Part shown: positions 5,938 through 63,770 of the stretch, piece by piece
How positions within the stretch are numbered: the stretch's first letter is position 1
Layout: each line of letters opens with the position of its first letter
NCBI GenBank assembly: GCA_945910005.1
Contig: OX246742.1
Location: forward strand, 47,531,902 to 47,595,901
Direction: 5' to 3'
Length of the DNA stretch: 64,000 nucleotides
Source: Isoperla grammatica
Taxonomy: Eukaryota > Arthropoda > Insecta > Plecoptera > Perlodidae
Translations under genes and position numbers: made by a program
Notes under the pieces: generated by a model
Told to the model about the DNA's origin: nothing
Databases searched by the model: none
What the model saw: the letters and a program-made list of their open reading frames with translations, nothing else

Positions 5938-7418
5938 ATGGATTCAAAAGTGCCGCGTGTTGTTAAGGGCGAAGGGTTCTTCCACACACAGAAGGTCCAG
6001 TACAGCAAGGAGACCCAGCAGCTGCTCAAAGGTGAGGCAACGAGGCTAATCGTGACACTCGGTGTAAACAAAGAATACAACGACTCGAACCCGGGTCTCC
6101 CGCATTCTGGAGCGAATCTGCATAGTTTATTATGTGTATTCTTGCTCACTGTAAGTCAGTGTTTAAATGTATGATTCAGGGATTGAATAAATGAATCAAC
6201 TACAAGGGAATTGTATTCGTCAGGAAATGTGAAAGAAGTAGGGGTTGTGTTGCAGTTCTGATGGACGAGAGCAAGCTGACCAATGTCCAGCGCAACCACA
6301 TCCAGCGCAGTGTGAACAAGGGTGAGCCCCTCCCCCCTCCCCTGGAGCCCCCCCGCCTCAGCCAGACGACCTCTCAGACCATCATCCTGCGACCCTGCGA
6401 GGCCAAGAGACGGACCCAGCTGGACATCATCAGGTCTGGGGCCTACGAGCGGGACGAGTTCCGACCGCTGCACCCCAAGAGTAAGTCAGCTTCATCCCTT
6501 GATGCACTGGGTCATGTAGTCCACACTTAGGTCTCTGCACCCCAAGAGTAAGTCAGCTTCATCCCTTGATGCACTGGGAGTTGTAGTCCACACTTAGGTC
6601 GCTGCACCCCAGTAGACTGATGTGATGACGATTGAAGTTTAAAAATGCATGAATACTATCGTACGTGTTCAATGTAGGCCTATTCCCTTGAGTATTTCAT
6701 GTGTATGTGCATGTTCGGTTGTTGGTACAGTGCACGATGTGACGTAGTTCTCTGGTTGCAGCGAATAAGGAGAAGGAGAAAGCTGACCTGCAGAGCATCA
6801 TGGCATACGGCAAGGTTGTGCCGCAAACGCCCAAAGTCGGGCAAAGGGTCAAGAAGCTGAAACCCCGACAACAGGTCGCGAAACCGGCGGACAAGCACGA
6901 ACGCTTCATGGAACGTGAGTATCTGGGGTAGTAAAGACGATACAGAGGGGGGGGGGGGGGGGGGCGCTGGCCTAGTAAACTACGGTGCGTGTGTTCCAGG
7001 TTCGAATCCTGGCTTGGGCATGGATGTCTTGTGGTGTTTCTCATCCTTATCTGTCACTCATCGTCTTGATTAGCATCATCCTTGTCCCCTCTACCCCGTC
7101 CCTCCTCCAATAGGCCTTGCGATGGTTCGTGACCAATCAGCGATCGGTATCTGAGACTGGGGCTCGCCGGTTGTGACGAAGCATCTTGTTGCAGTGATCG
7201 AGGAGATACGGGAGAGGGCCGACTTCCTAGAGGAGATGAAGGAATTGGGCCTGGAGCACAAGTACAAGCCGACGATAGTTCAAGAAGTGGCCGCCAAGGT
7301 GCGACAGCTCGAGGCGTTGGACAAACAGCGCACCAAGGAGTACGACGAGTTCATCAAGGAATACACCGGCTGTCTGGGGGCCCCACCGCCCTTGGAGAAC
7401 ATCATTGCCGCCAACTGA
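5938..7418 (+). CDS. C22orf23: UPF0193 protein EVG1 homologue (C22orf23-like)
   Basis: Four exons: 5938-6031, 6256-6480, 6762-6914 and 7195-7418. All introns are GT-AG and phase 1, giving 696 nt and 231 residues (human about 217). Residues 16-45 carry the family signature, a YSKETQQLLK-type segment followed by DESKLTNVQRNHIQ. A proline-rich linker, the ERDEFRPLHPK segment and a basic K-E-K-E-K stretch follow. The C-terminal third matches the family helix LIEEIRERADFLEEMKELG. The family is known from sea urchin (EVG1) and human and tracks with ciliated cells; its molecular role is not established. The ATG at 5938 gives the family-like N-terminus MDSKVPRVVKGEGFF. An in-frame ATG at 5782 would add 52 residues and place the X-box inside the coding region, so I prefer 5938. 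Confidence 0.85.
6468..6613 (+). repeat. 67-bp tandem duplication over the end of UPF0193 exon 2
   Basis: The segment starting CTGCACCCCAAGAGTAAGT at 6468 recurs at 6535, and in truncated form at 6602, a period of 67 bp. The unit contains the last codons of exon 2 and its 5' splice site. A second, nearly identical donor therefore lies 67 nt into the intron. Use of the first donor keeps the frame to exon 3. Confidence 0.9.
6947..7110 (+). mobile_element. Probable tRNA-derived SINE fragment
   Basis: After an 18-base G run comes an A-box-like segment (TGGCCTAGTAAACTACGG) and then a textbook B box, GGTTCGAATCC, at 6999-7009. The 11-bp T-arm and loop are flanked by complementary CCAG/CTGG. The 5' tRNA acceptor half is missing or buried by the G run, so this is no intact tRNA gene. 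The 3' boundary near 7110 is a guess. It lies in intron 3 of the UPF0193 gene. Confidence 0.5.
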
Positions 7419-10357: not shown

Positions 10358-13300
10358 ATGGCGACCGACTTAGCAACAGGTGGGCGTTTTTGACTCAAAA
10401 AATAATTAAAAAACGTTGCTTGTGTAGTTAAAAGTGACTGATTTGCTATGTACATTTTACTTTGCTAGGTCTAGGATTAAGTCTTTATTACTAATACACT
10501 TAAAACAGTAGTTGTCACATAGGCCTTGCCCAATCTGTGGCCTCAACTGGATAAAACATGTTCTAGGCCTAGGCCTAGTCCCCATTATTCCATTTCATCA
10601 TAGGCTATTAATTGCTTGTTTCAGGTGTGATTCCTCCATATTATCGAGAAGTGTTTGACCTATGTGCTGGAACCGATGGTACAGTCACTTCAGAGATGTT
10701 GACTAAACTTCTATCTAATTCAGGATTGCCTACACAAACACTCGGATTGGTTAGTGAATGCCACATAGCTGTCCTAGGTTTAAGGTTTGAAGTAGGCCTA
10801 GCCTAGCCTAGCATGCTCAGCTCACTTTGAAAAGCCTATGTGTAGACCCAACTTGGTCAGGGCATTCAGGGGATGTACGTCTAGTCCTACTGTAAGCGGG
10901 GCTAGGGCTAACTAGGCCCTAGGCCTATCAAACAATGTTACATAGTGTTAGATTGCTCCCACACTGCTCCGGTTCTGTAGTCTCCCATCCTCTTACAAAT
11001 AGTGGGCTAGGCCTTGTCGAGGAGATACTGGCTGGGGGCCTAGTAGTTTTATCTGCTGGCAAGTCCCTTTGCTAATGTAATCAAAAAGGCAAAATCCATG
11101 CCATCACAATGTTTAACCTATTTCAAATGTAATATTAGCTGTACATCAAATGCAGACCCATTAACAGCACTAATTGGTAGAGTTAAGGTGTGATCTACTG
11201 TGAATATCAAAGAATGCATTGAACTCGAACACTGGGACGCATGTCGTAGATATGGGGTGAGGTCGAGGCTAAGCAGGGATCGCTGTCGAGGACCAAACTT
11301 TACAAGACACTCGCGCTGATCGCTTTCGCTCAGCAGGGGAAGCAGCCGTCGGTCAAACTGCTGGAAAACTTTGGGGGAGAAGGTGAGCATTATTTACTAC
11401 GCTACGCACGTTCCGTTAGTAAGGTACCCTTTTGAGACTTAGAGTAAGTTCAGTCACTAGTCCTTCAAAACACAGTCATTATAATCTTTTACCCCTTTCA
11501 AATCAAGAATTAGTAAATACGTCCCACAACAGACTGAACAGCAAGTTTGGCTTCTTACTATATACCGTACATGCCTAGTTATACTGTAGCACTCAATCGA
11601 GCCTAGGGGACAGGCGTACGAAACATTGGTTGGATATGCGGCATCTGTCCGGGATCCACTGTGTGTTTGAGAGAAGGGCGCGTGTGATGTTTCCAGAGCT
11701 CCCCGTGCCCAAGCTGGGAGACGTGGCAACGCTGTCGCCCGAACGCTCCCCCCACCCCGGCCGCCTGGGTCTGACCTACTCCGACCTCTGCCGTATCGTA
11801 TGTGTTTGAGAGGAGGGCGCGTGTGATGTTTCCAGAGCTGCCCGTGCCCAAGCTGGGAGACGTGGCAACGCTGTCGCCCGAACGCTCCCCCCACCCCGGC
11901 CGCCTGGGTCTGACCTACTCTGACCTCTGCCGTATCGACGTCATCGGCGTGGACCTGGTGCCCGAGAAGAAGGGTCTGTTCCTGAAACACGTCGAGTACC
12001 GCGTGTCCAGCGTGCGCCTGGGCTCGCAGGTCAGGCGACGCTACACGGACTTTGTGTCGCTGAGGGACGCCCTGCTCGCGAGGTTCCCCTACAGGCTGGT
12101 GCCAAGGCTGCCACCCAAGAAGATCGCCATAGGTGAGTCATGTAACACGTTGAGTACCGCGTGTCTAGCGTGCGCCTGGGCTCGCAGGTCAGGCGACGCT
12201 ACACGGACTTTGTGTCGCTGAGGGACGCCCTGCTCGCAAGGTTCCCCTACAGGCTGGTGCCAAGGCTGCCTCCCAAGAAGATCGCCATAGGTGAGTCATG
12301 TAACACGTTGAGTACCGCGTGTCTAGCGTGCGCCTGGGCTCGCAGGTCAGGCGACGCTACACGGACTTTGTGTCGCTGAGGGACGCCCTGCTCGCAAGGT
12401 TCCCCTACAGGCTGGTGCCAAGGCTGCCACCCAAGAAGATCGCCATAGGTGAGTCATGTAACACGTTGAGTACCGCGTGTCTAGCGTGCGCCTGGGCTCG
12501 CAGGTCAGGCGACGCTACACGGACTTTGTGTCGCTGAGGGACGCCCTGCTCGCAAGGTTCCCCTACAGGCTGGTGCCAAGGCTGCCTCCCAAGAAGATCG
12601 CCATAGGTGAGTCATGTAACACGTCGAGTACCGCGTGTCTAGCGTGCGCCTGGGCTCGCAGGTCAGGCGACGCTACACGGACTTTGTGTCGCTGAGGGAC
12701 GCCCTGCTCGCAAGGTTCCCCTACAGGCTGGTGCCAAGGCTGCCTCCCAAGAAGATCGCCATAGGTGAGTCATGTAACACGTTGAGTACCGCGTGTCTAG
12801 CGTGCGCCTGGGCTCGCAGGTCAGGCGACGCTACACGGACTTTGTGTCGCTGAGGGACGCCCTGCTCGCAAGGTTCCCCTACAGGCTGGTGCCAAGGCTG
12901 CCTCCCAAGAAGATCGCCATAGGTGAGTCATGTAACACGTCGAGTACCGCGTGTCTAGCGTGCGCCTGGGCTCGCAGGTCAGGCGACGCTACACGGACTT
13001 TGTGTCGCTGAGGGACGCCCTGCTCGCAAGGTTCCCCTACAGGCTGGTGCCAAGGCTGCCTCCCAAGAAGATCGCCATAGGTGAGTCATGTAACACGTTG
13101 AGTACCGCGTGTCTAGCGTGCGCCTGGGCTCGCAGGTCAGGCGACGCTACACGGACTTTGTGTCGCTGAGGGACGCCCTGCTCGCAAGGTTCCCCTACAG
13201 GCTGGTGCCAAGGCTCCCTCCCAAGAAGATCGCCATAGGTGAGTCATGTAACACGTTGAGTACCGCGTGTCTAGCGTGCGCCTGGGCTCGCAGGTCAGGC

Positions 13301-16300
13301 GACGCTACACGGACTTTGTGTCGCTGAGGGACGCCCTGCTCGCAAGGTTCCCCTACAGGCTGGTGCCAAGGCTGCCTCCCAAGAAGATCGCCATAGGTGA
13401 GTCATGTAACACGTTGAGTACCGCGTGTCTAGCGTGCGCCTGGGCTCGCAGGTCAGGCGACGCTACACGGACTTTGTGTCGCTGAGGGACGCCCTGCTCG
13501 CTAGGTTCCCCTACAGGCTGGTGCCAAGGCTGCCTCCCAAGAAGATCGCCATAGGTGAGTCATGTAACACGTTGAGTACCGCGTGTCTAGCGTGCGCCTG
13601 GGCTCGCAGGTCAGGCGACGCTACACGGACTTTGTGTCGCTGAGGGACGCCCTGCTCGCAAGGTTCCCCTACAGGCTGGTGCCAAGGCTGCCTCCCAAGA
13701 AGATCGCCATAGGTGAGTCATGTAACACGTTGAGTACCGCGTGTCTAGCGTGCGCCTGGGCTCGCAGGTCAGGCGACGCTACACGGACTTTGTGTCGCTG
13801 AGGGACGCCCTGCTCGCAAGGTTCCCCTACAGGCTGGTGCCAAGGCTGCCTCCCAAGAAGATCGCCATAGGTGAGTCATGTAACACGTTGAGTACCGCGT
13901 GTCTAGCGTGCGCCTGGGCTCGCAGGTCAGGCGACGCTACACGGACTTTGTGTCGCTGAGGGACGCCCTGCTCGCAAGGTTCCCCTACAGGCTGGTGCCA
14001 AGGCTGCCTCCCAAGAAGATCGCCATAGGTGAGTCATGTAACACGTTGAGTACCGCGTGTCTAGCGTGCGCCTGGGCTCGCAGGTCAGGCGACGCTACAC
14101 GGACTTTGTGTCGCTGAGGGACGCCCTGCTCGCAAGGTTCCCCTACAGGCTGGTGCCAAGGCTCCCACCCAAGAAGATCGCCATAGGTGAGTCATGTAAC
14201 ACGTTGAGTACCGCGTGTCTAGCGTGCGCCTGGGCTCGCAGGTCAGGCGACGCTACACGGACTTTGTGTCGCTGAGGGACGCCCTGCTCGCAAGGTTCCC
14301 CTACAGGCTGGTGCCAAGGCTGCCTCCCAAGAAGATCGCCATAGGTGAGTCATGTAACACGTTGAGTACCGCGTGTCTAGCGTGCGCCTGGGCTCGCAGG
14401 TCAGGCGACGCTACACGGACTTTGTGTCGCTGAGGGACGCCCTGCTCGCAAGGTTCCCCTACAGGCTGGTGCCAAGGCTGCCTCCCAAGAAGATCGCCAT
14501 AGGTGAGTCATGTAACACGTTGAGTACCGCGTGTCTAGCGTGCGCCTGGGCTCGCAGGTCAGGCGACGCTACACGGACTTTGTGTCGCTGAGGGACGCCC
14601 TGCTCGCAAGGTTCCCCTACAGGCTGGTGCCAAGGCTGCCACCCAAGAAGATCGCCATAGGTGAGTCATGTAACACGTTGAGTACCGCGTGTCTAGCGTG
14701 CGCCTGGGCTCGCAGGTCAGGCGACGCTACACGGACTTTGTGTCGCTGAGGGACGCCCTGCTCGCAAGGTTCCCCTACAGGCTGGTGCCAAGGCTCCCTC
14801 CCAAGAAGATCGCCATAGGTGAGTCATGTAACACGTTGAGTACCGCGTGTCTAGCGTGCGCCTGGGCTCGCAGGTCAGGCGACGCTACACGGACTTTGTG
14901 TCGCTGAGGGACGCCCTGCTCGCAAGGTTCCCCTACAGGCTGGTGCCAAGGCTGCCTCCCAAGAAGATCGCCATAGGTGAGTCATGTAACACGTTGAGTA
15001 CCGCGTGTCTAGCGTGCGCCTGGGCTCGCAGGTCAGGCGACGCTACACGGACTTTGTGTCGCTGAGGGACGCCCTGCTCGCAAGGTTCCCCTACAGGCTG
15101 GTGCCAAGGCTCCCACCCAAGAAGATCGCCATAGGTGAGTCATGTAACACGTTGAGTACCGCGTGTCTAGCGTGCGCCTGGGCTCGCAGGTCAGGCGACG
15201 CTACACGGACTTTGTGTCGCTGAGGGACGCCCTGCTCGCAAGGTTCCCCTACAGGCTGGTGCCAAGGCTGCCTCCCAAGAAGATCGCCATAGGTGAGTCA
15301 TGTAACACGTTGAGTACCGCGTGTCTAGCGTGCGCCTGGGCTCGCAGGTCAGGCGACGCTACACGGACTTTGTGTCGCTGAGGGACGCCCTGCTCGCAAG
15401 GTTCCCCTACAGGCTGGTGCCAAGGCTGCCTCCCAAGAAGATCGCCATAGGTGAGTCATGTAACACGTTGAGTACCGCGTGTCTAGCGTGCGCCTGGGCT
15501 CGCAGGTCAGGCGACGCTACACGGACTTTGTGTCGCTGAGGGACGCCCTGCTCGCAAGGTTCCCCTACAGGCTGGTGCCAAGGCTGCCACCCAAGAAGAT
15601 CGCCATAGGTGAGTCATGTAACACGTTGAGTACCGCGTGTCTAGCGTGCGCCTGGGCTCGCAGGTCAGGCGACGCTACACGGACTTTGTGTCGCTGAGGG
15701 ACGCCCTGCTCGCAAGGTTCCCCTACAGGCTGGTGCCAAGGCTCCCTCCCAAGAAGATCGCCATAGGTGAGTCATGTAACACGTTGAGTACCGCGTGTCT
15801 AGCGTGCGCCTGGGCTCGCAGGTCAGGCGACGCTACACGGACTTTGTGTCGCTGAGGGACGCCCTGCTCGCAAGGTTCCCCTACAGGCTGGTGCCAAGGC
15901 TGCCTCCCAAGAAGATCGCCATAGGTGAGTCATGTAACACGTTGAGTACCGCGTGTCTAGCGTGCGCCTGGGCTCGCAGGTCAGGCGACGCTACACGGAC
16001 TTTGTGTCGCTGAGGGACGCCCTGCTCGCAAGGTTCCCCTACAGGCTGGTGCCAAGGCTCCCTCCCAAGAAGATCGCCATAGGTGAGTCATGTAACACGT
16101 TGAGTACCGCGTGTCTAGCGTGCGCCTGGGCTCGCAGGTCAGGCGACGCTACACGGACTTTGTGTCGCTGAGGGACGCCCTGCTCGCAAGGTTCCCCTAC
16201 AGGCTGGTGCCAAGGCTGCCTCCCAAGAAGATCGCCATAGGTGAGTCATGTAACACGTTGAGTACCGCGTGTCTAGCGTGCGCCTGGGCTCGCAGGTCAG

Positions 16301-19300
16301 GCGACGCTACACGGACTTTGTGTCGCTGAGGGACGCCCTGCTCGCAAGGTTCCCCTACAGGCTGGTGCCAAGGCTGCCTCCCAAGAAGATCGCCATAGGT
16401 GAGTCATGTAACACGTTGAGTACCGCGTGTCTAGCGTGCGCCTGGGCTCGCAGGTCAGGCGACGCTACACGGACTTTGTGTCGCTGAGGGACGCCCTGCT
16501 CGCAAGGTTCCCCTACAGGCTGGTGCCAAGGCTGCCTCCCAAGAAGATCGCCATAGGTGAGTCATGTAACACGTTGAGTACCGCGTGTCTAGCGTGCGCC
16601 TGGGCTCGCAGGTCAGGCGACGCTACACGGACTTTGTGTCGCTGAGGGACGCCCTGCTCGCAAGGTTCCCCTACAGGCTGGTGCCAAGGCTGCCTCCCAA
16701 GAAGATCGCCATAGGTGAGTCATGTAACACGTTGAGTACCGCGTGTCTAGCGTGCGCCTGGGCTCGCAGGTCAGGCGACGCTACACGGACTTTGTGTCGC
16801 TGAGGGACGCCCTGCTCGCAAGGTTCCCCTACAGGCTGGTGCCAAGGCTCCCACCCAAGAAGATCGCCATAGGTGAGTCATGTAACACGTTGAGTACCGC
16901 GTGTCTAGCGTGCGCCTGGGCTCGCAGGTCAGGCGACGCTACACGGACTTTGTGTCGCTGAGGGACGCCCTGCTCGCAAGGTTCCCCTACAGGCTGGTGC
17001 CAAGGCTGCCTCCCAAGAAGATCGCCATAGGTGAGTCATGTAACACGTCGAGTACCGCGTGTCTAGCGTGCGCCTGGGCTCGCAGGTCAGGCGACGCTAC
17101 ACGGACTTTGTGTCGCTGAGGGACGCCCTGCTCGCAAGGTTCCCCTACAGGCTGGTGCCAAGGCTGCCTCCCAAGAAGATCGCCATAGGTGAGTCATGTA
17201 ACACGTTGAGTACCGCGTGTCTAGCGTGCGCCTGGGCTCGCAGGTCAGGCGACGCTACACGGACTTTGTGTCGCTGAGGGACGCCCTGCTCGCAAGGTTC
17301 CCCTACAGGCTGGTGCCAAGGCTGCCACCCAAGAAGATCGCCATAGGTGAGTCATGTAACACGTTGAGTACCGCGTGTCTAGCGTGCGCCTGGGCTCGCA
17401 GGTCAGGCGACGCTACACGGACTTTGTGTCGCTGAGGGACGCCCTGCTCGCAAGGTTCCCCTACAGGCTGGTGCCAAGGCTCCCACCCAAGAAGATCGCC
17501 ATAGGTGAGACATGTAACACGTTGAGTACCGCGTGTCCAGCGTGCGCCTGGGCTCGCAGGTCAGGCGACGCTACACGGACTTTGTGTCGCTGAGGGACGC
17601 CCTGCTCGCAAGGTTCCCCTACAGGCTGGTGCCAAGGCTGCCTCCCAAGAAGATCGCCATAGGTGAGTCATGTAACACGTTGAGTACCGCGTGTCTAGCG
17701 TGCGCCTGGGCTCGCAGGTCAGGCGACGCTACACGGACTTTGTGTCGCTGAGGGACGCCCTGCTCGCGAGGTTCCCCTACAGGCTGGTGCCAAGGCTGCC
17801 ACCCAAGAAGATCGCCATAGGTGAGTCATGTAACACGTTGAGTACCGCGTGTCTAGCGTGCGCCTGGGCTCGCAGGTCAGGCGACGCTACACGGACTTTG
17901 TGTCGCTGAGGGACGCCCTGCTCGCAAGGTTCCCCTACAGGCTGGTGCCAAGGCTGCCTCCCAAGAAGATCGCCATAGGTGAGTCATGTAACACGTTGAG
18001 TACCGCGTGTCTAGCGTGCGCCTGGGCTCGCAGGTCAGGCGACGCTACACGGACTTTGTGTCGCTGAGGGACGCCCTGCTCGCAAGGTTCCCCTACAGGC
18101 TGGTGCCAAGGCTGCCACCCAAGAAGATCGCCATAGGTGAGTCATGTAACACGTTGAGTACCGCGTGTCTAGCGTGCGCCTGGGCTCGCAGGTCAGGCGA
18201 CGCTACACGGACTTTGTGTCGCTGAGGGACGCCCTGCTCGCAAGGTTCCCCTACAGGCTGGTGCCAAGGCTGCCTCCCAAGAAGATCGCCATAGGTGAGT
18301 CATGTAACACGTTGAGTACCGCGTGTCTAGCGTGCGCCTGGGCTCGCAGGTCAGGCGACGCTACACGGACTTTGTGTCGCTGAGGGACGCGCTGCTCGCA
18401 AGGTTCCCCTACAGGCTGGTGCCAAGGCTGCCACCCAAGAAGATCGCCATAGGTGAGTCATGTAACACGTTGAGTACCGCGTGTCTAGCGTGCGCCTGGG
18501 CTCGCAGGTCAGGCGACGCTACACGGACTTTGTGTCGCTGAGGGACGCCCTGCTCGCAAGGTTCCCCTACAGGCTGGTGCCAAGGCTGCCACCCAAGAAG
18601 ATCGCCATAGGTGAGTCATGTAACACGTTGAGTACCGCGTGTCTAGCGTGCGCCTGGGCTCGCAGGTCAGGCGACGCTACACGGACTTTGTGTCGCTGAG
18701 GGACGCGCTGCTCGCAAGGTTCCCCTACAGGCTGGTGCCAAGGCTCCCTCCCAAGAAGATCGCCATAGGTGAGTCATGTAACACGTTGAGTACCGCGTGT
18801 CCAGCGTGCGCCTGGGCTCGCAGGTCAGGCGACGCTACACGGACTTTGTGTCGCTGAGGGACGCCCTGCTCGCAAGGTTCCCCTACAGGCTGGTGCCAAG
18901 GCTGCCTCCCAAGAAGATCGCCATAGGTGAGTCATGTAACACGTTGAGTACCGCGTGTCTAGCGTGCGCCTGGGCTCGCAGGTCAGGCGACGCTACACGG
19001 ACTTTGTGTCGCTGAGGGACGCCCTGCTCGCAAGGTTCCCCTACAGGCTGGTGCCAAGGCTGCCTCCCAAGAAGATCGCCATAGGTGAGTCATGTAACAC
19101 GTTGAGTACCGCGTGTCTAGCGTGCGCCTGGGCTCGCAGGTCAGGCGACGCTACACGGACTTTGTGTCGCTGAGGGACGCCCTGCTCGCAAGGTTCCCCT
19201 ACAGGCTGGTGCCAAGGCTGCCTCCCAAGAAGATCGCCATAGGTGAGACATGTAACACGTTGAGTACCGCGTGTCTAGCGTGCGCCTGGGCTCGCAGGTC

Positions 19301-22300
19301 AGGCGACGCTACACGGACTTTGTGTCGCTGAGGGACGCCCTGCTCGCAAGGTTCCCCTACAGGCTGGTGCCAAGGCTGCCTCCCAAGAAGATCGCCATAG
19401 GTGAGTCATGTAACACGTTGAGTACCGCGTGTCTAGCGTGCGCCTGGGCTCGCAGGTCAGGCGACGCTACACGGACTTTGTGTCGCTGAGGGACGCCCTG
19501 CTCGCAAGGTTCCCCTACAGGCTGGTGCCAAGGCTGCCACCCAAGAAGATCGCCATAGGTGAGTCATGTAACACGTCGAGTACCGCGTGTCTAGCGTGCG
19601 CCTGGGCTCGCAGGTCAGGCGACGCTACACGGACTTTGTGTCGCTGAGGGACGCCCTGCTCGCAAGGTTCCCCTACAGGCTGGTGCCAAGGCTGCCTCCC
19701 AAGAAGATCGCCATAGGTGAGTCATGTAACACGTTGAGTACCGCGTGTCTAGCGTGCGCCTGGGCTCGCAGGTCAGGCGACGCTACACGGACTTTGTGTC
19801 GCTGAGGGACGCCCTGCTCGCAAGGTTCCCCTACAGGCTGGTGCCAAGGCTGCCTCCCAAGAAGATCGCCATAGGTGAGTCATGTAACACGTTGAGTACC
19901 GCGTGTCTAGCGTGCGCCTGGGCTCGCAGGTCAGGCGACGCTACACGGACTTTGTGTCGCTGAGGGACGCCCTGCTCGCAAGGTTCCCCTACAGGCTGGT
20001 GCCAAGGCTGCCTCCCAAGAAGATCGCCATAGGTGAGTCATGTAACACGTTGAGTACCGCGTGTCTAGCGTGCGCCTGGGCTCGCAGGTCAGGCGACGCT
20101 ACACGGACTTTGTGTCGCTGAGGGACGCCCTGCTCGCAAGGTTCCCCTACAGGCTGGTGCCAAGGCTGCCTCCCAAGAAGATCGCCATAGGTGAGTCATG
20201 TAACACGTTGAGTACCGCGTGTCCAGCGTGCGCCTGGGCTCGCAGGTCAGGCGACGCTACACGGACTTTGTGTCGCTGAGGGACGCCCTGCTCGCAAGGT
20301 TCCCCTACAGGCTGGTGCCAAGGCTGCCTCCCAAGAAGATCGCCATAGGTGAGTCATGTAACACGTTGAGTACCGCGTGTCTAGCGTGCGCCTGGGCTCG
20401 CAGGTCAGGCGACGCTACACGGACTTTGTGTCGCTGAGGGACGCCCTGCTCGCAAGGTTCCCCTACAGGCTGGTGCCAAGGCTGCCTCCCAAGAAGATCG
20501 CCATAGGTGAGACATGTAACACGTTGAGTACCGCGTGTCTAGCGTGCGCCTGGGCTCGCAGGTCAGGCGACGCTACACGGACTTTGTGTCGCTGAGGGAC
20601 GCCCTGCTCGCAAGGTTCCCCTACAGGCTGGTGCCAAGGCTGCCTCCCAAGAAGATCGCCATAGGTGAGTCATGTAACACGTTGAGTACCGCGTGTCTAG
20701 CGTGCGCCTGGGCTCGCAGGTCAGGCGACGCTACACGGACTTTGTGTCGCTGAGGGACGCCCTGCTCGCAAGGTTCCCCTACAGGCTGGTGCCAAGGCTG
20801 CCTCCCAAGAAGATCGCCATAGGTGAGTCATGTAACACGTTGAGTACCGCGTGTCTAGCGTGCGCCTGGGCTCGCAGGTCAGGCGACGCTACACGGACTT
20901 TGTGTCGCTGAGGGACGCCCTGCTCGCAAGGTTCCCCTACAGGCTGGTGCCAAGGCTGCCACCCAAGAAGATCGCCATAGGTGAGTCATGTAACACGTTG
21001 AGTACCGCGTGTCTAGCGTGCGCCTGGGCTCGCAGGTCAGGCGACGCTACACGGACTTTGTGTCGCTGAGGGACGCCCTGCTCGCAAGGTTCCCCTACAG
21101 GCTGGTGCCAAGGCTGCCTCCCAAGAAGATCGCCATAGGTGAGTCATGTAACACGTCGAGTACCGCGTGTCTAGCGTGCGCCTGGGCTCGCAGGTCAGGC
21201 GACGCTACACGGACTTTGTGTCGCTGAGGGACGCCCTGCTCGCAAGGTTCCCCTACAGGCTGGTGCCAAGGCTCCCACCCAAGAAGATCGCCATAGGTGA
21301 GTCATGTAACACGTCGAGTACCGCGTGTCTAGCGTGCGCCTGGGCTCGCAGGTCAGGCGACGCTACACGGACTTTGTGTCGCTGAGGGACGCCCTGCTCG
21401 CAAGGTTCCCCTACAGGCTGGTGCCAAGGCTGCCTCCCAAGAAGATCGCCATAGGTGAGTCATGTAACACGTTGAGTACCGCGTGTCTAGCGTGCGCCTG
21501 GGCTCGCAGGTCAGGCGACGCTACACGGACTTTGTGTCGCTGAGGGACGCCCTGCTCGCAAGGTTCCCCTACAGGCTGGTGCCAAGGCTGCCACCCAAGA
21601 AGATCGCCATAGGTGAGTCATGTAACACGTTGAGTACCGCGTGTCTAGCGTGCGCCTGGGCTCGCAGGTCAGGCGACGCTACACGGACTTTGTGTCGCTG
21701 AGGGACGCCCTGCTCGCAAGGTTCCCCTACAGGCTGGTGCCAAGGCTCCCACCCAAGAAGATCGCCATAGGTGAGTCATGTAACACGTTGAGTACCGCGT
21801 GTCTAGCGTGCGCCTGGGCTCGCAGGTCAGGCGACGCTACACGGACTTTGTGTCGCTGAGGGACGCCCTGCTCGCAAGGTTCCCCTACAGGCTGGTGCCA
21901 AGGCTGCCTCCCAAGAAGATCGCCATAGGTGAGTCATGTAACACGTTGAGTACCGCGTGTCTAGCGTGCGCCTGGGCTCGCAGGTCAGGCGACGCTACAC
22001 GGACTTTGTGTCGCTGAGGGACGCCCTGCTCGCAAGGTTCCCCTACAGGCTGGTGCCAAGGCTCCCACCCAAGAAGATCGCCATAGGTGAGTCATGTAAC
22101 ACGTTGAGTACCGCGTGTCTAGCGTGCGCCTGGGCTCGCAGGTCAGGCGACGCTACACGGACTTTGTGTCGCTGAGGGACGCCCTGCTCGCAAGGTTCCC
22201 CTACAGGCTGGTGCCAAGGCTGCCTCCCAAGAAGATCGCCATAGGTGAGACACACAACACGTCGAGTACCGCGTGTCTAGCGTGCGCCTGGGCTCGCAGG

Positions 22301-31300: not shown

Positions 31301-34300
31301 CGCAGGTCAGGCGACGCTACACGGACTTTGTGTCGCTGAGGGACGCCCTGCTCGCAAGGTTCCCCTACAGGCTGGTGCCAAGGCTGCCTCCCAAGAAGAT
31401 CGCCATAGGTGAGTCATGTAACACGTTGAGTACCGCGTGTCTAGCGTGCGCCTGGGCTCGCAGGTCAGGCGACGCTACACGGACTTTGTGTCGCTGAGGG
31501 ACGCCCTGCTCGCAAGGTTCCCCTACAGGCTGGTGCCAAGGCTGCCTCCCAAGAAGATCGCCATAGGTGAGTCATGTAACACGTTGAGTACCGCGTGTCT
31601 AGCGTGCGCCTGGGCTCGCAGGTCAGGCGACGCTACACGGACTTTGTGTCGCTGAGGGACGCCCTGCTCGCAAGGTTCCCCTACAGGCTGGTGCCAAGGC
31701 TGCCTCCCAAGAAGATCGCCATAGGTGAGTCATGTAACACGTTGAGTACCGCGTGTCTAGCGTGCGCCTGGGCTCGCAGGTCAGGCGACGCTACACGGAC
31801 TTTGTGTCGCTGAGGGACGCCCTGCTCGCAAGGTTCCCCTACAGGCTGGTGCCAAGGCTGCCTCCCAAGAAGATCGCCATAGGTGAGTCATGTAACACGT
31901 TGAGTACCGCGTGTCTAGCGTGCGCCTGGGCTCGCAGGTCAGGCGACGCTACACGGACTTTGTGTCGCTGAGGGACGCCCTGCTCGCAAGGTTCCCCTAC
32001 AGGCTGGTGCCAAGGCTGCCTCCCAAGAAGATCGCCATAGGTGAGTCATGTAACACGTTGAGTACCGCGTGTCTAGCGTGCGCCTGGGCTCGCAGGTCAG
32101 GCGACGCTACACGGACTTTGTGTCGCTGAGGGACGCCCTGCTCGCAAGGTTCCCCTACAGGCTGGTGCCAAGGCTGCCTCCCAAGAAGATCGCCATAGGT
32201 GAGTCATGTAACACGTCGAGTACCGCGTGTCCAGCGTGCGCCTGGGCTCGCAGGTCAGGCGACGCTACACGGACTTTGTGTCGCTGAGGGACGCCCTGCT
32301 CGCAAGGTTCCCCTACAGGCTGGTGCCAAGGCTGCCTCCCAAGAAGATCGCCATAGGTGAGTCATGTAACACGTTGAGTACCGCGTGTCTAGCGTGCGCC
32401 TGGGCTCGCAGGTCAGGCGACGCTACACGGACTTTGTGTCGCTGAGGGACGCCCTGCTCGCGAGGTTCCCCTACAGGCTGGTGCCAAGGCTCCCTCCCAA
32501 GAAGATCGCCATAGGTGAGTCATGTAACACGTTGAGTACCGCGTGTCTAGCGTGCGCCTGGGCTCGCAGGTCAGGCGACGCTACACGGACTTTGTGTCGC
32601 TGAGGGACGCCCTGCTCGCAAGGTTCCCCTACAGGCTGGTGCCAAGGCTGCCTCCCAAGAAGATCGCCATAGGTGAGTCATGTAACACGTTGAGTACCGC
32701 GTGTCTAGCGTGCGCCTGGGCTCGCAGGTCAGGCGACGCTACACGGACTTTGTGTCGCTGAGGGACGCCCTGCTCGCAAGGTTCCCCTACAGGCTGGTGC
32801 CAAGGCTGCCTCCCAAGAAGATCGCCATAGGTGAGTCATGTAACACGTTGAGTACCGCGTGTCTAGCGTGCGCCTGGGCTCGCAGGTCAGGCGACGCTAC
32901 ACGGACTTTGTGTCGCTGAGGGACGCCCTGCTCGCTAGGTTCCCCTACAGGTTGGGCCAAGGCTGCCTCCCAAGAAGATCGCCATAGGTGAGTCATGTAA
33001 CACGTCGAGTACCGCGTGTCTAGCGTGCGCCTGGGCTCGCAGGTCAGGCGACGCTACACGGACTTTGTGTCGCTGAGGGACGCCCTGCTCGCAAGGTTCC
33101 CCTACAGGCTGGTGCCAAGGCTGCCTCCCAAGAAGATCGCCATAGGTGAGTCATGTAACACGTTGAGTACCGCGTGTCTAGCGTGCGCCTGGGCTCGCAG
33201 GTCAGGCGACGCTACACGGACTTTGTGTCGCTGAGGGACGCCCTGCTCGCAAGGTTCCCCTACAGGCTGGTGCCAAGGCTGCCACCCAAGAAGATCGCCA
33301 TAGGTGAGTCATGTAACACGTTGAGTACCGCGTGTCTAGCGTGCGCCTGGGCTCGCAGGTCAGGCGACGCTACACGGACTTTGTGTCGCTGAGGGACGCC
33401 CTGCTCGCAAGGTTCCCCTACAGGCTGGTGCCAAGGCTGCCACCCAAGAAGATCGCCATAGGTGAGTCATGTAACACGTTGAGTACCGCGTGTCTAGCGT
33501 GCGCCTGGGCTCGCAGGTCAGGCGACGCTACACGGACTTTGTGTCGCTGAGGGACGCCCTGCTCGCAAGGTTCCCCTACAGGCTGGTGCCAAGGCTGCCT
33601 CCCAAGAAGATCGCCATAGGTGAGACATGTAACACGTTGAGTACCGCGTGTCTAGCGTGCGCCTGGGCTCGCAGGTCAGGCGACGCTACACGGACTTTGT
33701 GTCGCTGAGGGACGCCCTGCTCGCAAGGTTCCCCTACAGGCTGGTGCCAAGGCTGCCTCCCAAGAAGATCGCCATAGGTGAGTCATGTAACACGTTGAGT
33801 ACCGCGTGTCTAGCGTGCGCCTGGGCTCGCAGGTCAGGCGACGCTACACGGACTTTGTGTCGCTGAGGGACGCCCTGCTCGCAAGGTTCCCCTACAGGCT
33901 GGTGCCAAGGCTGCCTCCCAAGAAGATCGCCATAGGTGAGTCATGTAACACGTTGAGTACCGCGTGTCTAGCGTGCGCCTGGGCTCGCAGGTCAGGCGAC
34001 GCTACACGGACTTTGTGTCGCTGAGGGACGCCCTGCTCGCAAGGTTCCCCTACAGGCTGGTGCCAAGGCTGCCTCCCAAGAAGATCGCCATAGGTGAGTC
34101 ATGTAACACGTTGAGTACCGCGTGTCTAGCGTGCGCCTGGGCTCGCAGGTCAGGCGACGCTACACGGACTTTGTGTCGCTGAGGGACGCCCTGCTCGCAA
34201 GGTTCCCCTACAGGCTGGTGCCAAGGCTGCCTCCCAAGAAGATCGCCATAGGTGAGTCATGTAACACGTTGAGTACCGCGTGTCTAGCGTGCGCCTGGGC

Positions 34301-37300
34301 TCGCAGGTCAGGCGACGCTACACGGACTTTGTGTCGCTGAGGGACGCCCTGCTCGCAAGGTTCCCCTACAGGCTGGTGCCAAGGCTGCCTCCCAAGAAGA
34401 TCGCCATAGGTGAGACATGTAACACGTTGAGTACCGCGTGTCTAGCGTGCGCCTGGGCTCGCAGGTCAGGCGACGCTACACGGACTTTGTGTCGCTGAGG
34501 GACGCCCTGCTCGCAAGGTTCCCCTACAGGCTGGTGCCAAGGCTGCCTCCCAAGAAGATCGCCATAGGTGAGTCATGTAACACGTTGAGTACCGCGTGTC
34601 CAGCGTACGCCTGGGCTCGCAGGTCAGGCGACGCTACACGGACTTTGTGTCGCTGAGGGACGCCCTGCTCGCAAGGTTCCCCTACAGGCTGGTGCCAAGG
34701 CTGCCTCCCAAGAAGATCGCCATAGGTGAGTCATGTAACACGTTGAGTACCGCGTGTCTAGCGTGCGCCTGGGCTCGCAGGTCAGGCGACGCTACACGGA
34801 CTTTGTGTCGCTGAGGGACGCCCTGCTCGCAAGGTTCCCCTACAGGCTGGTGCCAAGGCTGCCTCCCAAGAAGATCGCCATAGGTGAGTCATGTAACACG
34901 TTGAGTACCGCGTGTCTAGCGTGCGCCTGGGCTCGCAGGTCAGGCGACGCTACACGGACTTTGTGTCGCTGAGGGACGCCCTGCTCGCAAGGTTCCCCTA
35001 CAGGCTGGTGCCAAGGCTGCCTCCCAAGAAGATCGCCATAGGTGAGTCATGTAACACGTTGAGTACCGCGTGTCTAGCGTGCGCCTGGGCTCGCAGGTCA
35101 GGCGACGCTACACGGACTTTGTGTCGCTGAGGGACGCCCTGCTCGCAAGGTTCCCCTACAGGCTGGTGCCAAGGCTGCCTCCCAAGAAGATCGCCATAGG
35201 TGAGTCATGTAACACGTTGAGTACCGCGTGTCTAGCGTGCGCCTGGGCTCGCAGGTCAGGCGACGCTACACGGACTTTGTGTCGCTGAGGGACGCCCTGC
35301 TCGCAAGGTTCCCCTACAGGCTGGTGCCAAGGCTGCCTCCCAAGAAGATCGCCATAGGTGAGTCATGTAACACGTTGAGTACCGCGTGTCTAGCGTGCGC
35401 CTGGGCTCGCAGGTCAGGCGACGCTACACGGACTTTGTGTCGCTGAGGGACGCCCTGCTCGCGAGGTTCCCCTACAGGCTGGTGCCAAGGCTGCCTCCCA
35501 AGAAGATCGCCATAGGTGAGTCATGTAACACGTTGAGTACCGCGTGTCTAGCGTGCGCCTGGGCTCGCAGGTCAGGCGACGCTACACGGACTTTGTGTCG
35601 CTGAGGGACGCCCTGCTCGCAAGGTTCCCCTACAGGCTGGTGCCAAGGCTGCCTCCCAAGAAGATCGCCATAGGTGAGTCATGTAACACGTTGAGTACCG
35701 CGTGTCTAGCGTGCGCCTGGGCTCGCAGGTCAGGCGACGCTACACGGACTTTGTGTCGCTGAGGGACGCCCTGCTCGCAAGGTTCCCCTACAGGCTGGTG
35801 CCAAGGCTGCCTCCCAAGAAGATCGCCATAGGTGAGTCATGTAACACGTTGAGTACCGCGTGTCTAGCGTGCGCCTGGGCTCGCAGGTCAGGCGACGCTA
35901 CACGGACTTTGTGTCGCTGAGGGACGCCCTGCTCGCAAGGTTCCCCTACAGGCTGGTGCCAAGGCTGCCTCCCAAGAAGATCGCCATAGGTGAGTCATGT
36001 AACACGTTGAGTACCGCGTGTCCAGCGTGCGCCTGGGCTCGCAGGTCAGGCGACGCTACACGGACTTTGTGTCGCTGAGGGACGCCCTGCTCGCAAGGTT
36101 CCCCTACAGGCTGGTGCCAAGGCTGCCACCCAAGAAGATCGCCATAGGTGAGTCATGTAACACGTTGAGTACCGCGTGTCCAGCGTGCGCCTGGGCTCGC
36201 AGGTCAGGCGACGCTACACGGACTTTGTGTCGCTGAGGGACGCCCTGCTCGCAAGGTTCCCCTACAGGCTGGTGCCAAGGCTGCCACCCAAGAAGATCGC
36301 CATAGGTGAGTCATGTAACACGTTGAGTACCGCGTGTCTAGCGTGCGCCTGGGCTCGCAGGTCAGGCGACGCTACACGGACTTTGTGTCGCTGAGGGACG
36401 CCCTGCTCGCAAGGTTCCCCTACAGGCTGGTGCCAAGGCTGCCTCCCAAGAAGATCGCCATAGGTGAGTCATGTAACACGTTGAGTACCGCGTGTCTAGC
36501 GTGCGCCTGGGCTCGCAGGTCAGGCGACGCTACACGGACTTTGTGTCGCTGAGGGACGCCCTGCTCGCAAGGTTCCCCTACAGGCTGGTGCCAAGGCTGC
36601 CACCCAAGAAGATCGCCATAGGTGAGTCATGTAACACGTCGAGTACCGCGTGTCTAGCGTGCGCCTGGGCTCGCAGGTCAGGCGACGCTACACGGACTTT
36701 GTGTCGCTGAGGGACGCCCTGCTCGCAAGGTTCCCCTACAGGCTGGTGCCAAGGCTCCCTCCCAAGAAGATCGCCATAGGTGAGTCATGTAACACGTCGA
36801 GTACCGCGTGTCTAGCGTGCGCCTGGGCTCGCAGGTCAGGCGACGCTACACGGACTTTGTGTCGCTGAGGGACGCCCTGCTCGCAAGGTTCCCCTACAGG
36901 CTGGTGCCAAGGCTCCCTCCCAAGAAGATCGCCATAGGTGAGTCATGTAACACGTTGAGTACCGCGTGTCTAGCGTGCGCCTGGGCTCGCAGGTCAGGCG
37001 ACGCTACACGGACTTTGTGTCGCTGAGGGACGCCCTGCTCGCAAGGTTCCCCTACAGGCTGGTGCCAAGGCTGCCACCCAAGAAGATCGCCATAGGTGAG
37101 TCATGTAACACGTCGAGTACCGCGTGTCTAGCGTGCGCCTGGGCTCGCAGGTCAGGCGACGCTACACGGACTTTGTGTCGCTGAGGGACGCCCTGCTCGC
37201 AAGGTTCCCCTACAGGCTGGTGCCAAGGCTCCCTCCCAAGAAGATCGCCATAGGTGAGTCATGTAACACGTCGAGTACCGCGTGTCTAGCGTGCGCCTGG

Positions 37301-40300
37301 GCTCGCAGGTCAGGCGACGCTACACGGACTTTGTGTCGCTGAGGGACGCCCTGCTCGCAAGGTTCCCCTACAGGCTGGTGCCAAGGCTCCCTCCCAAGAA
37401 GATCGCCATAGGTGAGTCATGTAACACGTTGAGTACCGCGTGTCTAGCGTGCGCCTGGGCTCGCAGGTCAGGCGACGCTACACGGACTTTGTGTCGCTGA
37501 GGGACGCCCTGCTCGCAAGGTTCCCCTACAGGCTGGTGCCAAGGCTGCCTCCCAAGAAGATCGCCATAGGTGAGTCATGTAACACGTTGAGTACCGCGTG
37601 TCTAGCGTGCGCCTGGGCTCGCAGGTCAGGCGACGCTACACGGACTTTGTGTCGCTGAGGGACGCCCTGCTCGCAAGGTTCCCCTACAGGCTGGTGCCAA
37701 GGCTGCCTCCCAAGAAGATCGCCATAGGTGAGTCATGTAACACGTTGAGTACCGCGTGTCTAGCGTGCGCCTGGGCTCGCAGGTCAGGCGACGCTACACG
37801 GACTTTGTGTCGCTGAGGGACGCCCTGCTCGCAAGGTTCCCCTACAGGCTGGTGCCAAGGCTGCCACCCAAGAAGATCGCCATAGGTGAGTCATGTAACA
37901 CGTTGAGTACTGCGTGTCTAGCGTGCGCCTGGGCTCGCAGGTCAGACGACGCTACACGGACTTTGTGTCGCTGAGGGACGCCCTGCTCGCAAGGTTCCCC
38001 TACAGGCTGGTGCCAAGGCTGCCTCCCAAGAAGATCGCCATAGGTGAGTCATGTAACACGTTGAGTACCGCGTGTCTAGCGTGCGCCTGGGCTCGCAGGT
38101 CAGGCGACGCTACACGGACTTTGTGTCGCTGAGGGACGCCCTGCTCGCAAGGTTCCCCTACAGGCTGGTGCCAAGGCTGCCACCCAAGAAGATCGCCATA
38201 GGTGAGTCATGTAACACGTTGAGTACCGCGTGTCTAGCGTGCGCCTGGGCTCGCAGGTCAGGCGACGCTACACGGACTTTGTGTCGCTGAGGGACGCCCT
38301 GCTCGCAAGGTTCCCCTACAGGCTGGTGCCAAGGCTGCCACCCAAGAAGATCGCCATAGGTGAGTCATGTAACACGTTGAGTACCGCGTGTCTAGCGTGC
38401 GCCTGGGCTCGCAGGTCAGGCGACGCTACACGGACTTTGTGTCGCTGAGGGACGCCCTGCTCGCAAGGTTCCCCTACAGGCTGGTGCCAAGGCTGCCTCC
38501 CAAGAAGATCGCCATAGGTGAGACATGTAACACGTTGAGTACCGCGTGTCTAGCGTGCGCCTGGGCTCGCAGGTCAGGCGACGCTACACGGACTTTGTGT
38601 CGCTGAGGGACGCCCTGCTCGCAAGGTTCCCCTACAGGCTGGTGCCAAGGCTCCCTCCCAAGAAGATCGCCATAGGTGAGTCATGTAACACGTTGAGTAC
38701 CGCGTGTCCAGCGTGCGCCTGGGCTCGCAGGTCAGGCGACGCTACACGGACTTTGTGTCGCTGAGGGACGCCCTGCTCGCAAGGTTCCCCTACAGGCTGG
38801 TGCCAAGGCTGCCTCCCAAGAAGATCGCCATAGGTGAGTCATGTAACACGTTGAGTACCGCGTGTCTAGCGTGCGCCTGGGCTCGCAGGTCAGGCGACGC
38901 TACACGGACTTTGTGTCGCTGAGGGACGCCCTGCTCGCAAGGTTCCCCTACAGGCTGGTGCCAAGGCTGCCTCCCAAGAAGATCGCCATAGGTGAGTCAT
39001 GTAACACGTTGAGTACCGCGTGTCTAGCGTGCGCCTGGGCTCGCAGGTCAGGCGACGCTACACGGACTTTGTGTCGCTGAGGGACGCCCTGCTCGCAAGG
39101 TTCCCCTACAGGCTGGTGCCAAGGCTGCCTCCCAAGAAGATCGCCATAGGTGAGTCATGTAACACGTTGAGTACCGCGTGTCTAGCGTGCGCCTGGGCTC
39201 GCAGGTCAGGCGACGCTACACGGACTTTGTGTCGCTGAGGGACGCCCTGCTCGCAAGGTTCCCCTACAGGCTGGTGCCAAGGCTGCCTCCCAAGAAGATC
39301 GCCATAGGTGAGTCATGTAACACGTTGAGTACCGCGTGTCTAGCGTGCGCCTGGGCTCGCAGGTCAGGCGACGCTACACGGACTTTGTGTCGCTGAGGGA
39401 CGCCCTGCTCGCAAGGTTCCCCTACAGGCTGGTGCCAAGGCTGCCTCCCAAGAAGATCGCCATAGGTGAGTCATGTAACACGTTGAGTACCGCGTGTCTA
39501 GCGTGCGCCTGGGCTCGCAGGTCAGGCGACGCTACACGGACTTTGTGTCGCTGAGGGACGCCCTGCTCGCAAGGTTCCCCTACAGGCTGGTGCCAAGGCT
39601 GCCTCCCAAGAAGATCGCCATAGGTGAGTCATGTAACACGTTGAGTACCGCGTGTCTAGCGTGCGCCTGGGCTCGCAGGTCAGGCGACGCTACACGGACT
39701 TTGTGTCGCTGAGGGACGCCCTGCTCGCAAGGTTCCCCTACAGGCTGGTGCCAAGGCTGCCTCCCAAGAAGATCGCCATAGGTGAGTCATGTAACACGTT
39801 GAGTACCGCGTGTCTAGCGTGCGCCTGGGCTCGCAGGTCAGGCGACGCTACACGGACTTTGTGTCGCTGAGGGACGCCCTGCTCGCAAGGTTCCCCTACA
39901 GGCTGGTGCCAAGGCTGCCTCCCAAGAAGATCGCCATAGGTGAGTCATGTAACACGTTGAGTACCGCGTGTCTAGCGTGCGCCTGGGCTCGCAGGTCAGG
40001 CGACGCTACACGGACTTTGTGTCGCTGAGGGACGCCCTGCTCGCAAGGTTCCCCTACAGGCTGGTGCCAAGGCTGCCTCCCAAGAAGATCGCCATAGGTG
40101 AGTCATGTAACACGTTGAGTACCGCGTGTCTAGCGTGCGCCTGGGCTCGCAGGTCAGGCGACGCTACACGGACTTTGTGTCGCTGAGGGACGCCCTGCTC
40201 GCAAGGTTCCCCTACAGGCTGGTGCCAAGGCTGCCACCCAAGAAGATCGCCATAGGTGAGTCATGTAACACGTTGAGTACCGCGTGTCTAGCGTGCGCCT

Positions 40301-43300
40301 GGGCTCGCAGGTCAGGCGACGCTACACGGACTTTGTGTCGCTGAGGGACGCCCTGCTCGCAAGGTTCCCCTACAGGCTGGTGCCAAGGCTCCCTCCCAAG
40401 AAGATCGCCATAGGTGAGTCATGTAACACGTTGAGTACCGCGTGTCTAGCGTGCGCCTGGGCTCGCAGGTCAGGCGACGCTACACGGACTTTGTGTCGCT
40501 GAGGGACGCCCTGCTCGCAAGGTTCCCCTACAGGCTGGTGCCAAGGCTGCCTCCCAAGAAGATCGCCATAGGTGAGTCATGTAACACGTTGAGTACCGCG
40601 TGTCTAGCGTGCGCCTGGGCTCGCAGGTCAGGCGACGCTACACGGACTTTGTGTCGCTGAGGGACGCCCTGCTCGCAAGGTTCCCCTACAGGCTGGTGCC
40701 AAGGCTGCCTCCCAAGAAGATCGCCATAGGTGAGTCATGTAACACGTTGAGTACCGCGTGTCTAGCGTGCGCCTGGGCTCGCAGGTCAGGCGACGCTACA
40801 CGGACTTTGTGTCGCTGAGGGACGCCCTGCTCGCAAGGTTCCCCTACAGGCTGGTGCCAAGGCTGCCTCCCAAGAAGATCGCCATAGGTGAGTCATGTAA
40901 CACGTTGAGTACCGCGTGTCTAGCGTGCGCCTGGGCTCGCAGGTCAGGCGACGCTACACGGACTTTGTGTCGCTGAGGGACGCCCTGCTCGCAAGGTTCC
41001 CCTACAGGCTGGTGCCAAGGCTGCCACCCAAGAAGATCGCCATAGGTGAGTCATGTAACACGTTGAGTACCGCGTGTCTAGCGTGCGCCTGGGCTCGCAG
41101 GTCAGGCGACGCTACACGGACTTTGTGTCGCTGAGGGACGCCCTGCTCGCAAGGTTCCCCTACAGGCTGGTGCCAAGGCTGCCACCCAAGAAGATCGCCA
41201 TAGGTGAGTCATGTAACACGTTGAGTACCGCGTGTCTAGCGTGCGCCTGGGCTCGCAGGTCAGGCGACGCTACACGGACTTTGTGTCGCTGAGGGACGCC
41301 CTGCTCGCAAGGTTCCCCTACAGGCTGGTGCCAAGGCTGCCTCCCAAGAAGATCGCCATAGGTGAGTCATGTAACACGTTGAGTACCGCGTGTCTAGCGT
41401 GCGCCTGGGCTCGCAGGTCAGGCGACGCTACACGGACTTTGTGTCGCTGAGGGACGCCCTGCTCGCAAGGTTCCCCTACAGGCTGGTGCCAAGGCTGCCT
41501 CCCAAGAAGATCGCCATAGGTGAGTCATGTAACACGTTGAGTACCGCGTGTCTAGCGTGCGCCTGGGCTCGCAGGTCAGGCGACGCTACACGGACTTTGT
41601 GTCGCTGAGGGACGCCCTGCTCGCAAGGTTCCCCTACAGGCTGGTGCCAAGGCTGCCTCCCAAGAAGATCGCCATAGGTGAGTCATGTAACACGTTGAGT
41701 ACCGCGTGTCTAGCGTGCGCCTGGGCTCGCAGGTCAGGCGACGCTACACGGACTTTGTGTCGCTGAGGGACGCCCTGCTCGCAAGGTTCCCCTACAGGCT
41801 GGTGCCAAGGCTGCCTCCCAAGAAGATCGCCATAGGTGAGTCATGTAACACGTTGAGTACCGCGTGTCTAGCGTGCGCCTGGGCTCGCAGGTCAGGCGAC
41901 GCTACACGGACTTTGTGTCGCTGAGGGACGCCCTGCTCGCAAGGTTCCCCTACAGGCTGGTGCCAAGGCTGCCTCCCAAGAAGATCGCCATAGGTGAGTC
42001 ATGTAACACGTTGAGTACCGCGTGTCTAGCGTGCGCCTGGGCTCGCAGGTCAGGCGACGCTACACGGACTTTGTGTCGCTGAGGGACGCCCTGCTCGCAA
42101 GGTTCCCCTACAGGCTGGTGCCAAGGCTCCCTCCCAAGAAGATCGCCATAGGTGAGTCATGTAACACGTTGAGTACCGCGTGTCTAGCGTGCGCCTGGGC
42201 TCGCAGGTCAGGCGACGCTACACGGACTTTGTGTCGCTGAGGGACGCCCTGCTCGCAAGGTTCCCCTACAGGCTGGTGCCAAGGCTGCCACCCAAGAAGA
42301 TCGCCATAGGTGAGTCATGTAACACGTTGAGTACCGCGTGTCTAGCGTGCGCCTGGGCTCGCAGGTCAGGCGACGCTACACGGACTTTGTGTCGCTGAGG
42401 GACGCCCTGCTTGCGAGGTTCCCCTACAGGCTGGTGCCAAGGCTGCCACCCAAGAAGATCGCCATAGGTGAGTCATGTAACACGTTGAGTACCGCGTGTC
42501 TAGCGTGCGCCTGGGCTCGCAGGTCAGGCGACGCTACACGGACTTTGTGTCGCTGAGGGACGCTCTGCTCGCGAGGTTCCCCTACAGGCTGGTGCCAAGG
42601 CTCCCACCCAAGAAGATCGCCATAGGTGAGACACGCAACACTGCAAGAGATGGGGCTGATAAGCTGCACCATCTTGGGTGCAACAAAGGTCATTCAAATA
42701 TTCAACAATTTACAGCTCAACGTCATCTGTGCATGAGTTCAGCTTGTTGCCACCAGAATATTTACAGTCTATAGTGTTAGGGTTTTGTAGTTGTGTGTCC
42801 AACAGCTTACCGTCTGAAGTGGAACCCGCCGAAATGACAGTAACATTCTTAGTGATGACAAGTAAAAAAAATGCACAGGACATTTCAACTCAAGTTCCCA
42901 CAAAAACAATAATTTAATAAAATAGTAATATAATAGATAGAGATTATTAATTGTCAGTCATCTTTGTCCATGCCCTATTGTTTTCACCTGATATATTCAG
43001 ACTTGGCTTCCACGCGTGTACAATAACCACTTGTCGTCGTTTCAACAGGTGATTCCCACTTCTTGGAGGAGCGACGGCGCGGCCTCGTTCGCTGGCTCAC
43101 TCTGGTGGGTCGACACCCAACCATGCACAAGGTACGTAGCCAGTCATGTTGGATACAGTGTCACACTAACCTGAACAGGTGTTGATATAGAGGATGTCTG
43201 TACTACCCTCAATCACATGCCGGCAAGTGTTCAATGGTTTATTTAAACTGAGGGAAATATAACCACTAGGCACTAAAGAAACTAACCCATGTAGAGATTG

Positions 43301-63521: not shown

Positions 63522-63770
63522 TTGAACTATGCACCAGGTAGGATGCTAGAAGTCATAACTGTGCTGCTATTTGCCGTGTGAGCAATGCGCCGGTGTCGAC
63601 TATGCTGTGTGAACTATGCACTAGGTAAGGTGCTAGAAGTCGTCATCGCTGTGCTGCTGTTTGCCGTGTGAACTATGCGCTGGTGTTGACTATGCTGTGT
63701 GACTATGCACTAGGTAAGGTGCTAGAAGTCGTCATCGCTGTGCTGCTGTTTGCCGTGTGAACTATGCGCC
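63522..63770 (-). repeat. Three ~88-bp tandem copies over a stop codon
   Basis: The segment containing TGCTAGAAGTC occurs at 63544, 63631 and 63720 (periods 87 and 89). On the minus strand each unit includes the last codons (HGKQQHSDDDF in the coding copy) and the TAG stop. The extra copies lie in the 3' untranslated region, are about 90% alike, and the farthest is the most diverged. Confidence 0.9.

Follow-up and report, generated by a model that had tools for sequence, protein, structure and literature searches.

A 64,000-nucleotide stretch of the genome of the plecopteran insect Isoperla grammatica (GenBank assembly GCA_945910005.1, contig OX246742.1, positions 47,531,902 to 47,595,901 of the forward strand; hereafter the window) contains a tandem array of 194 units, each made from the end of exon 4 of an SNX8-like gene together with the start of the following intron. 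We consider the array to be, quite probably, a giant mirage, that is, a tandem duplication of an exon-intron boundary, which was seeded by alleles of the exon, mixed by frequent conversion over short tracts, and is spliced out as an intron. Mirages at exon edges are already known; what is new is the satellite size, the synonymous-only variation among variants present in multiple copies, and the near absence of linkage between variants 3 bp apart.

Tandem Repeats Finder (TRF) describes positions 11986-42641 as a single tandem array with a period of 158, 194.0 copies and 99% matches. With the donor motif GGTGAG as an anchor, 194 units are delimited at 11986-42636, of which 193 have a length of 158 bp and one has a length of 157 bp; beyond 42636, 5 bp of a shared AACAC bring the TRF array end to 42641. 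Each unit consists of the 3' 147 bp of exon 4 (of 297) and 11 bp of intron 4, including the 5' splice site, and the units are numbered from 0 (the first, which is the real exon end) to 193 (the last). A 30.65-kb array with 99% identity is not a product of chance, and the window is free of any N. The figure of 194 is the unit count in the assembly of one haplotype. All 194 unit donors are near-consensus (TAG/GTGAGT in 186 and TAG/GTGAGA in 8), while a convincing acceptor was not found in the units by a simple pyrimidine count (best 9 of 13). No higher-order repeats above the shuffled expectation were found in the array. An earlier sequence-only reading had proposed 194 copies over 30.65 kb, a unit joining the last 147 bp of exon 4 to the intron start, and RRY and PPKK motifs within that unit; TRF and anchoring reproduce the extent (with one unit of 157 bp), the splice model and donor anchoring the composition, and the unit translation the motifs. 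Strand structure as a driver of the expansion was rejected, given that the plus strand of the unit folds ordinarily as DNA (z -0.60), and a search for RNA genes gave no Rfam match in the window at gathering score.

Splicing from the donor at 12132 to position 43049 joins eight modelled exons into an open frame of 471 codons, with the first and last exons of the gene outside the model. A PX domain is found in the spliced frame (Pfam E 4.9e-17), together with an EH match below the gathering score (Pfam E 7e-4), and the spliced protein has no Pfam BAR match at E 0.001. Its best match in the PDB is Mvp1 (6q0x, E 3.5e-21, query 112-378), in an alignment that extends past the PX domain. We take Mvp1 to be the yeast counterpart of SNX8, and the SNX8 and Mvp1 sorting nexins have an EH-like N-terminus and a BAR region. 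Because of the PX domain, the sub-threshold EH match and Mvp1 as the best solved relative, the host gene appears to be SNX8-like, which agrees with the name given to it in the sequence-only reading. The array was also rightly called the largest structure in the gene there, as it takes up 30.65 kb of a 30.9-kb intron. The frame stays open with the first donor. Seven of the 193 later donors were tried as well (those of units 1-6 and 193); all lead to a stop at codon 213, inside the second unit, and translation by read-through of the array was therefore rejected. The unit length is 2 mod 3. Units as separate exons were also ruled out, for want of a convincing acceptor by the same pyrimidine count. 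Given that all units have a near-consensus donor and none has a convincing acceptor, the simplest definition of exon 4 would run from its own acceptor to the first donor, and the first donor is presumably the one used in life.

The units fall into 28 haplotypes, with the consensus represented by 100 of the 194. The same 48-residue peptide is encoded by 192 of 194 units, the exceptions being one R-to-C change and one frameshift. Among the distinct coding substitutions, 12 of 13 are synonymous, compared with 27-33% expected under five mutation models that include strong CpG decay (P 1.5e-6 to 1.6e-5), and all eight coding variants present in at least two units are synonymous (P 2.9e-5 to 1.5e-4). 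Third positions are variable at 9 of 48, first and second positions at 2 of 96 (Fisher P 0.0009), and intronic positions of the unit at 4 of 11; the synonymous sites include unit indices 7, 22, 94, 124 and 127, with counting from 0. This synonymous pattern is not the product of neutral array decay. Most simply, working copies of exon 4 would have given rise to the older variants or screened them. At the ends of the array, units 0, 192 and 193 have 4, 3 and 7 differences from the consensus, at synonymous and intronic sites only, and 9 of the 11 variants present in at least two units also occur in one or another of these three.

Linkage was evaluated at seven sites in the 191 inner units (units 0, 192 and 193 dropped), with non-consensus bases pooled per site (G and T at site 94) and site 91 (2 copies) left out. 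The sum of r2 is not above that of shuffled arrays (P 0.35), r is 0.16 between sites 3 bp apart, all four gametes are present in 12 of 21 site pairs, and the lag-1 autocorrelation of variants is 0.008. With random donors, simulated conversion brings the 3-bp linkage down to 0.27-0.59 after 40 events per unit and to 0.12-0.34 after 80, the value varying with tract length. Restricting the donors to within 5-20 units results in lag-1 correlations of 0.13-0.58, unlike the array, and to within 50 units in 0.04-0.06. Under simulated unequal exchange, the 3-bp linkage stays at 0.89-0.99 in the 11 of 15 settings in which both sites remain polymorphic in at least 6 of 12 runs (at least 8 runs in ten settings and 6 runs in one); the remaining four settings had 0, 1, 1 and 2 polymorphic runs of 12 (r none, 0.21, 1.0 and 1.0).

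We propose that the array originated through tandem duplication of a segment that starts within exon 4 and ends after the first 11 bp of intron 4. The exon reads tgAAACACgtc at the unit start and the native intron past the last unit reads gacacgcAACACtgc; because AACAC is common to both segment ends, a microhomology-mediated event is likely. The pattern of variation suggests that the units were then derived from functional alleles of the exon, which would explain why the older differences are synonymous. Growth to approximately 194 units may have been accompanied by stirring through frequent short conversion tracts from distant donors inside the array, with the end units retaining other alleles; this step is suggested by variants that are almost in linkage equilibrium, by the weak local structure and by ends that differ from the interior. 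In the mature transcript, the exon 4 acceptor would be paired with the first donor and the array removed as an intron. The observed frame is open across this predicted junction, and the gene can still work if splicing at the first donor discards the array.

Several points weigh against a giant mirage stirred by conversion. The autocorrelation at lag 8 has a P of 0.001 (one of nine lags tested) and is unexplained, lags 2 and 3 have P values of 0.05-0.06, and adjacent identical variant units number 7 compared with 3.9 after shuffling (P 0.08). The lag-8 signal could be a trace of an old duplication of eight units, which we do not rely on. Both simulations assume a start from fully linked minor haplotypes. 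At 80 conversion events per unit, 30-bp tracts leave 6.4 of the 7 sites polymorphic and 100-bp tracts only 4.75, and short conversion tracts therefore fit better in these simulations. Among the singleton substitutions one of five is non-synonymous, with one frameshift in addition, which are too few to show neutral evolution within the array. In unit 0, four alleles are ones that only a minority of interior units share, and this unit therefore does not exchange freely with the interior. The evidence base is one assembled haplotype, read from its sequence alone.

The concern of the sequence-only reading that the array might be an assembly product in need of a test is justified, and we rate assembly inflation as unlikely. 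A mirage of few units in the animal would have been extended to 194 by the assembler, with the variants coming from allelic reads or from polishing. The extreme regularity of the array (193 of 194 units of one length) and the weak spatial order of its units would both be expected, and heterozygosity of a single-copy exon would yield synonymous variants. There are also published precedents, in which a globin mirage was apparently misassembled in the amphioxus draft (PMC3087553) and PGBD5 repeat numbers are unequal in two lancelet sequences (PMC3902484). However, noise from two allelic haplotypes should leave sites 3 bp apart linked, and the observed r is far from that. Copying of multi-unit blocks is also not above the shuffled level: the longest identical multi-unit block has 7 units (P 0.66), and a repeated block holds at most 3 non-consensus units (P 0.20). 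Furthermore, two of the seven variants are regional, with 85G confined to units 40-99 (P 0.007) and 94G found in units 104-148 in 7 of its 8 interior occurrences (P 0.012), although the remaining five show no clustering (P 0.16-0.94). Copies of rare haplotypes lie closer together than in shuffled arrays (mean gap 21.7 compared with 47.9 units, P 0.0007). No stretch of identical units exceeds 8 (1.26 kb), which is within the span of long accurate reads. Loop-copying or consensus noise hence fits the data less well than a mirage.

It is doubtful, and less probable than inflation, that the array is a living reservoir, in which 193 silent half-PX copies trade short tracts with each other and occasionally with the expressed exon, at such a rate that only protein-neutral variants spread and gene conversion keeps a non-expressed array protein-coding. 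On this reading, the many strong donors might also shield the long intron through binding of the U1 small nuclear ribonucleoprotein. Slightly less credible again is purifying selection now acting on the units at the protein level, through conversion into exon 4 or expression of some units. The peptide kept in 192 units and the synonymous state of every multi-copy coding variant would follow directly, but unit 0 with its four interior-minor alleles is poorly mixed with the interior, the best acceptor is not convincing, the unit length leads to a stop on reading on, and inherited allelic variation is a simpler account of the pattern. Lastly, an ordinary neutral minisatellite that overlaps an exon edge by chance and evolves via unequal crossing-over would be tandem and homogeneous with distinct ends, and chance overlap may not be rare in a gene-dense window, but it is very improbable, given that 12 of 13 synonymous changes are not expected of neutral mutation and that simulated unequal exchange leaves the 3-bp linkage nearly intact.

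The original report of the amphioxus Adh3 mirage is said to be that of Canestro et al. 2002 in Nucleic Acids Research. Two later papers describe mirages in amphioxus Adh3, globin, TnC and PGBD5 genes, with splicing reportedly undisturbed (PMC3087553, PMC3902484). In the globin gene BflGb6, units of 150-160 bp are present six and three times in two haplotypes with 81-100% identity, the interior is homogenised with cluster boundaries excluded, and BflGb9 has a 157-bp unit as a duplicate (PMC3087553). For the globin mirages, reverse-transcription PCR (RT-PCR) suggested normal splicing, and mirages have been put forward as a way in which new introns arise (PMC3087553). Length and somatic instability were reported for the Adh3 mirage minisatellites with units of 10-72 bp (via PMC3087553 and PMC3902484), and lancelet PGBD5 has 60- and 108-bp repeats over splice sites, in 2 and 7 and in 3 and 6 copies between two genome sequences (PMC3902484). 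Hence, the statement in the sequence-only reading that no such satellite had been described does not hold: published exon-intron-boundary mirages include globin units of 150-160 and 157 bp, albeit in few copies (PMC3087553). That reading also missed the nearly complete restriction of unit variation to synonymous changes, the divergence of the end units and the other exon-edge duplications of the window.

The Isoperla array resembles the amphioxus globin mirages in its boundary-spanning tandem units of 158 bp, the splice signals duplicated in many units, a homogeneous interior with the boundary units (0, 192 and 193) outside the homogenisation, and the involvement of both 5' and 3' exon boundaries. 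It has approximately 30 times more units than the BflGb6 mirage, and BflGb9 has only a duplicate; normal splicing of the globin mirages was suggested by RT-PCR, and here it is predicted from the sequence. Similar to the Adh3 mirage, it is a minisatellite at an exon-intron boundary, although the Adh3 units are shorter, and it shares with lancelet PGBD5 the overlap of repeats with splice sites, although the PGBD5 copies are few and imperfect. Among the matches listed from the open-access literature there were no other papers on such arrays, or on any of this size, which does not imply absence from print.

Other exon-edge duplications are present in the window (Table 1). The two copies of the 139-bp duplication differ at two exonic positions, both third-position and synonymous in a frame read by eye, and at one intronic position. 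Four of the five TRF rows with a period above 50 clearly touch an exon edge; the window is gene-dense, and no preference for exon edges is claimed. A further repeat of 89 bp x2.8, at 63523-63772, lies beside what may be an acidic coding stretch on the minus strand. Within the 33 kb of array flanks, the palindrome TAGGCCTA is present 9 times, approximately 20 times the base-composition expectation. PDB matches of PA2G4 and tektin were also obtained, neither of which is informative on the host group. At 54988-55515 there is a 175-residue open frame with no Pfam match, which we take to resemble the C-terminal part of a non-LTR (long terminal repeat) retrotransposon reverse transcriptase.

Table 1 Location of the array, the host gene exons and other exon-edge duplications in the window
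Feature	Position	Strand	Basis or remark
Tandem duplication, 67 bp x2.2, UPF0193 exon end with gtaagt donor	6466..6611	+	TRF, Pfam
SNX8-like coding exon, EH-like part	10625..10749	+	Spliced model; Pfam EH E 7e-4, below gathering score
SNX8-like coding exon, EH-like part	11250..11382	+	Spliced model
Tandem duplication, 139 bp x2, exon 4 5' end with acceptor	11662..11937	+	TRF, splice model
Functional exon 4 (predicted), 3' 147 bp from 11986 = unit 0	11836..12132	+	Acceptor tttccag/AG, donor ATAG/gtgagt, in frame with neighbours
Tandem array, 194 units, exon 4 end with GT donor	11986..42636	+	TRF and donor anchoring
Intron 4 (predicted), 30,916 bp, almost entirely array; 423 bp from the last donor	12133..43048	+	
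Unit 64	22098..22255	+	152A, 155C and 157C together as in the last unit, the only interior case; one further private change
Unit 132	32842..32998	+	Sole frameshift (1-bp deletion) and 2 synonymous changes
Unit 193, last	42479..42636	+	4 synonymous and 3 intronic differences from consensus; intron then continues as unique sequence
SNX8-like exon 5, further PX part	43049..43131	+	Acceptor tttcaacag/GTGATT
Four further SNX8-like coding exons	43345-43570, 44002-44146, 44785-45001, 46425-46613	+	Spliced model
Tandem duplication, 115 bp x2, GILT gene start; acceptor-like site, start codon and coding start all duplicated	57464..57690	+	TRF, Pfam

If the mirage is real at this size, the array would show how far the duplication of an exon edge can go with the reading frame unbroken. 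It also poses a question for splicing, in that the true donor is followed by 193 nearly identical ones. The combination of synonymous-only variation and near-complete shuffling would allow gene conversion and mutation in a tandem array to be counted against each other.

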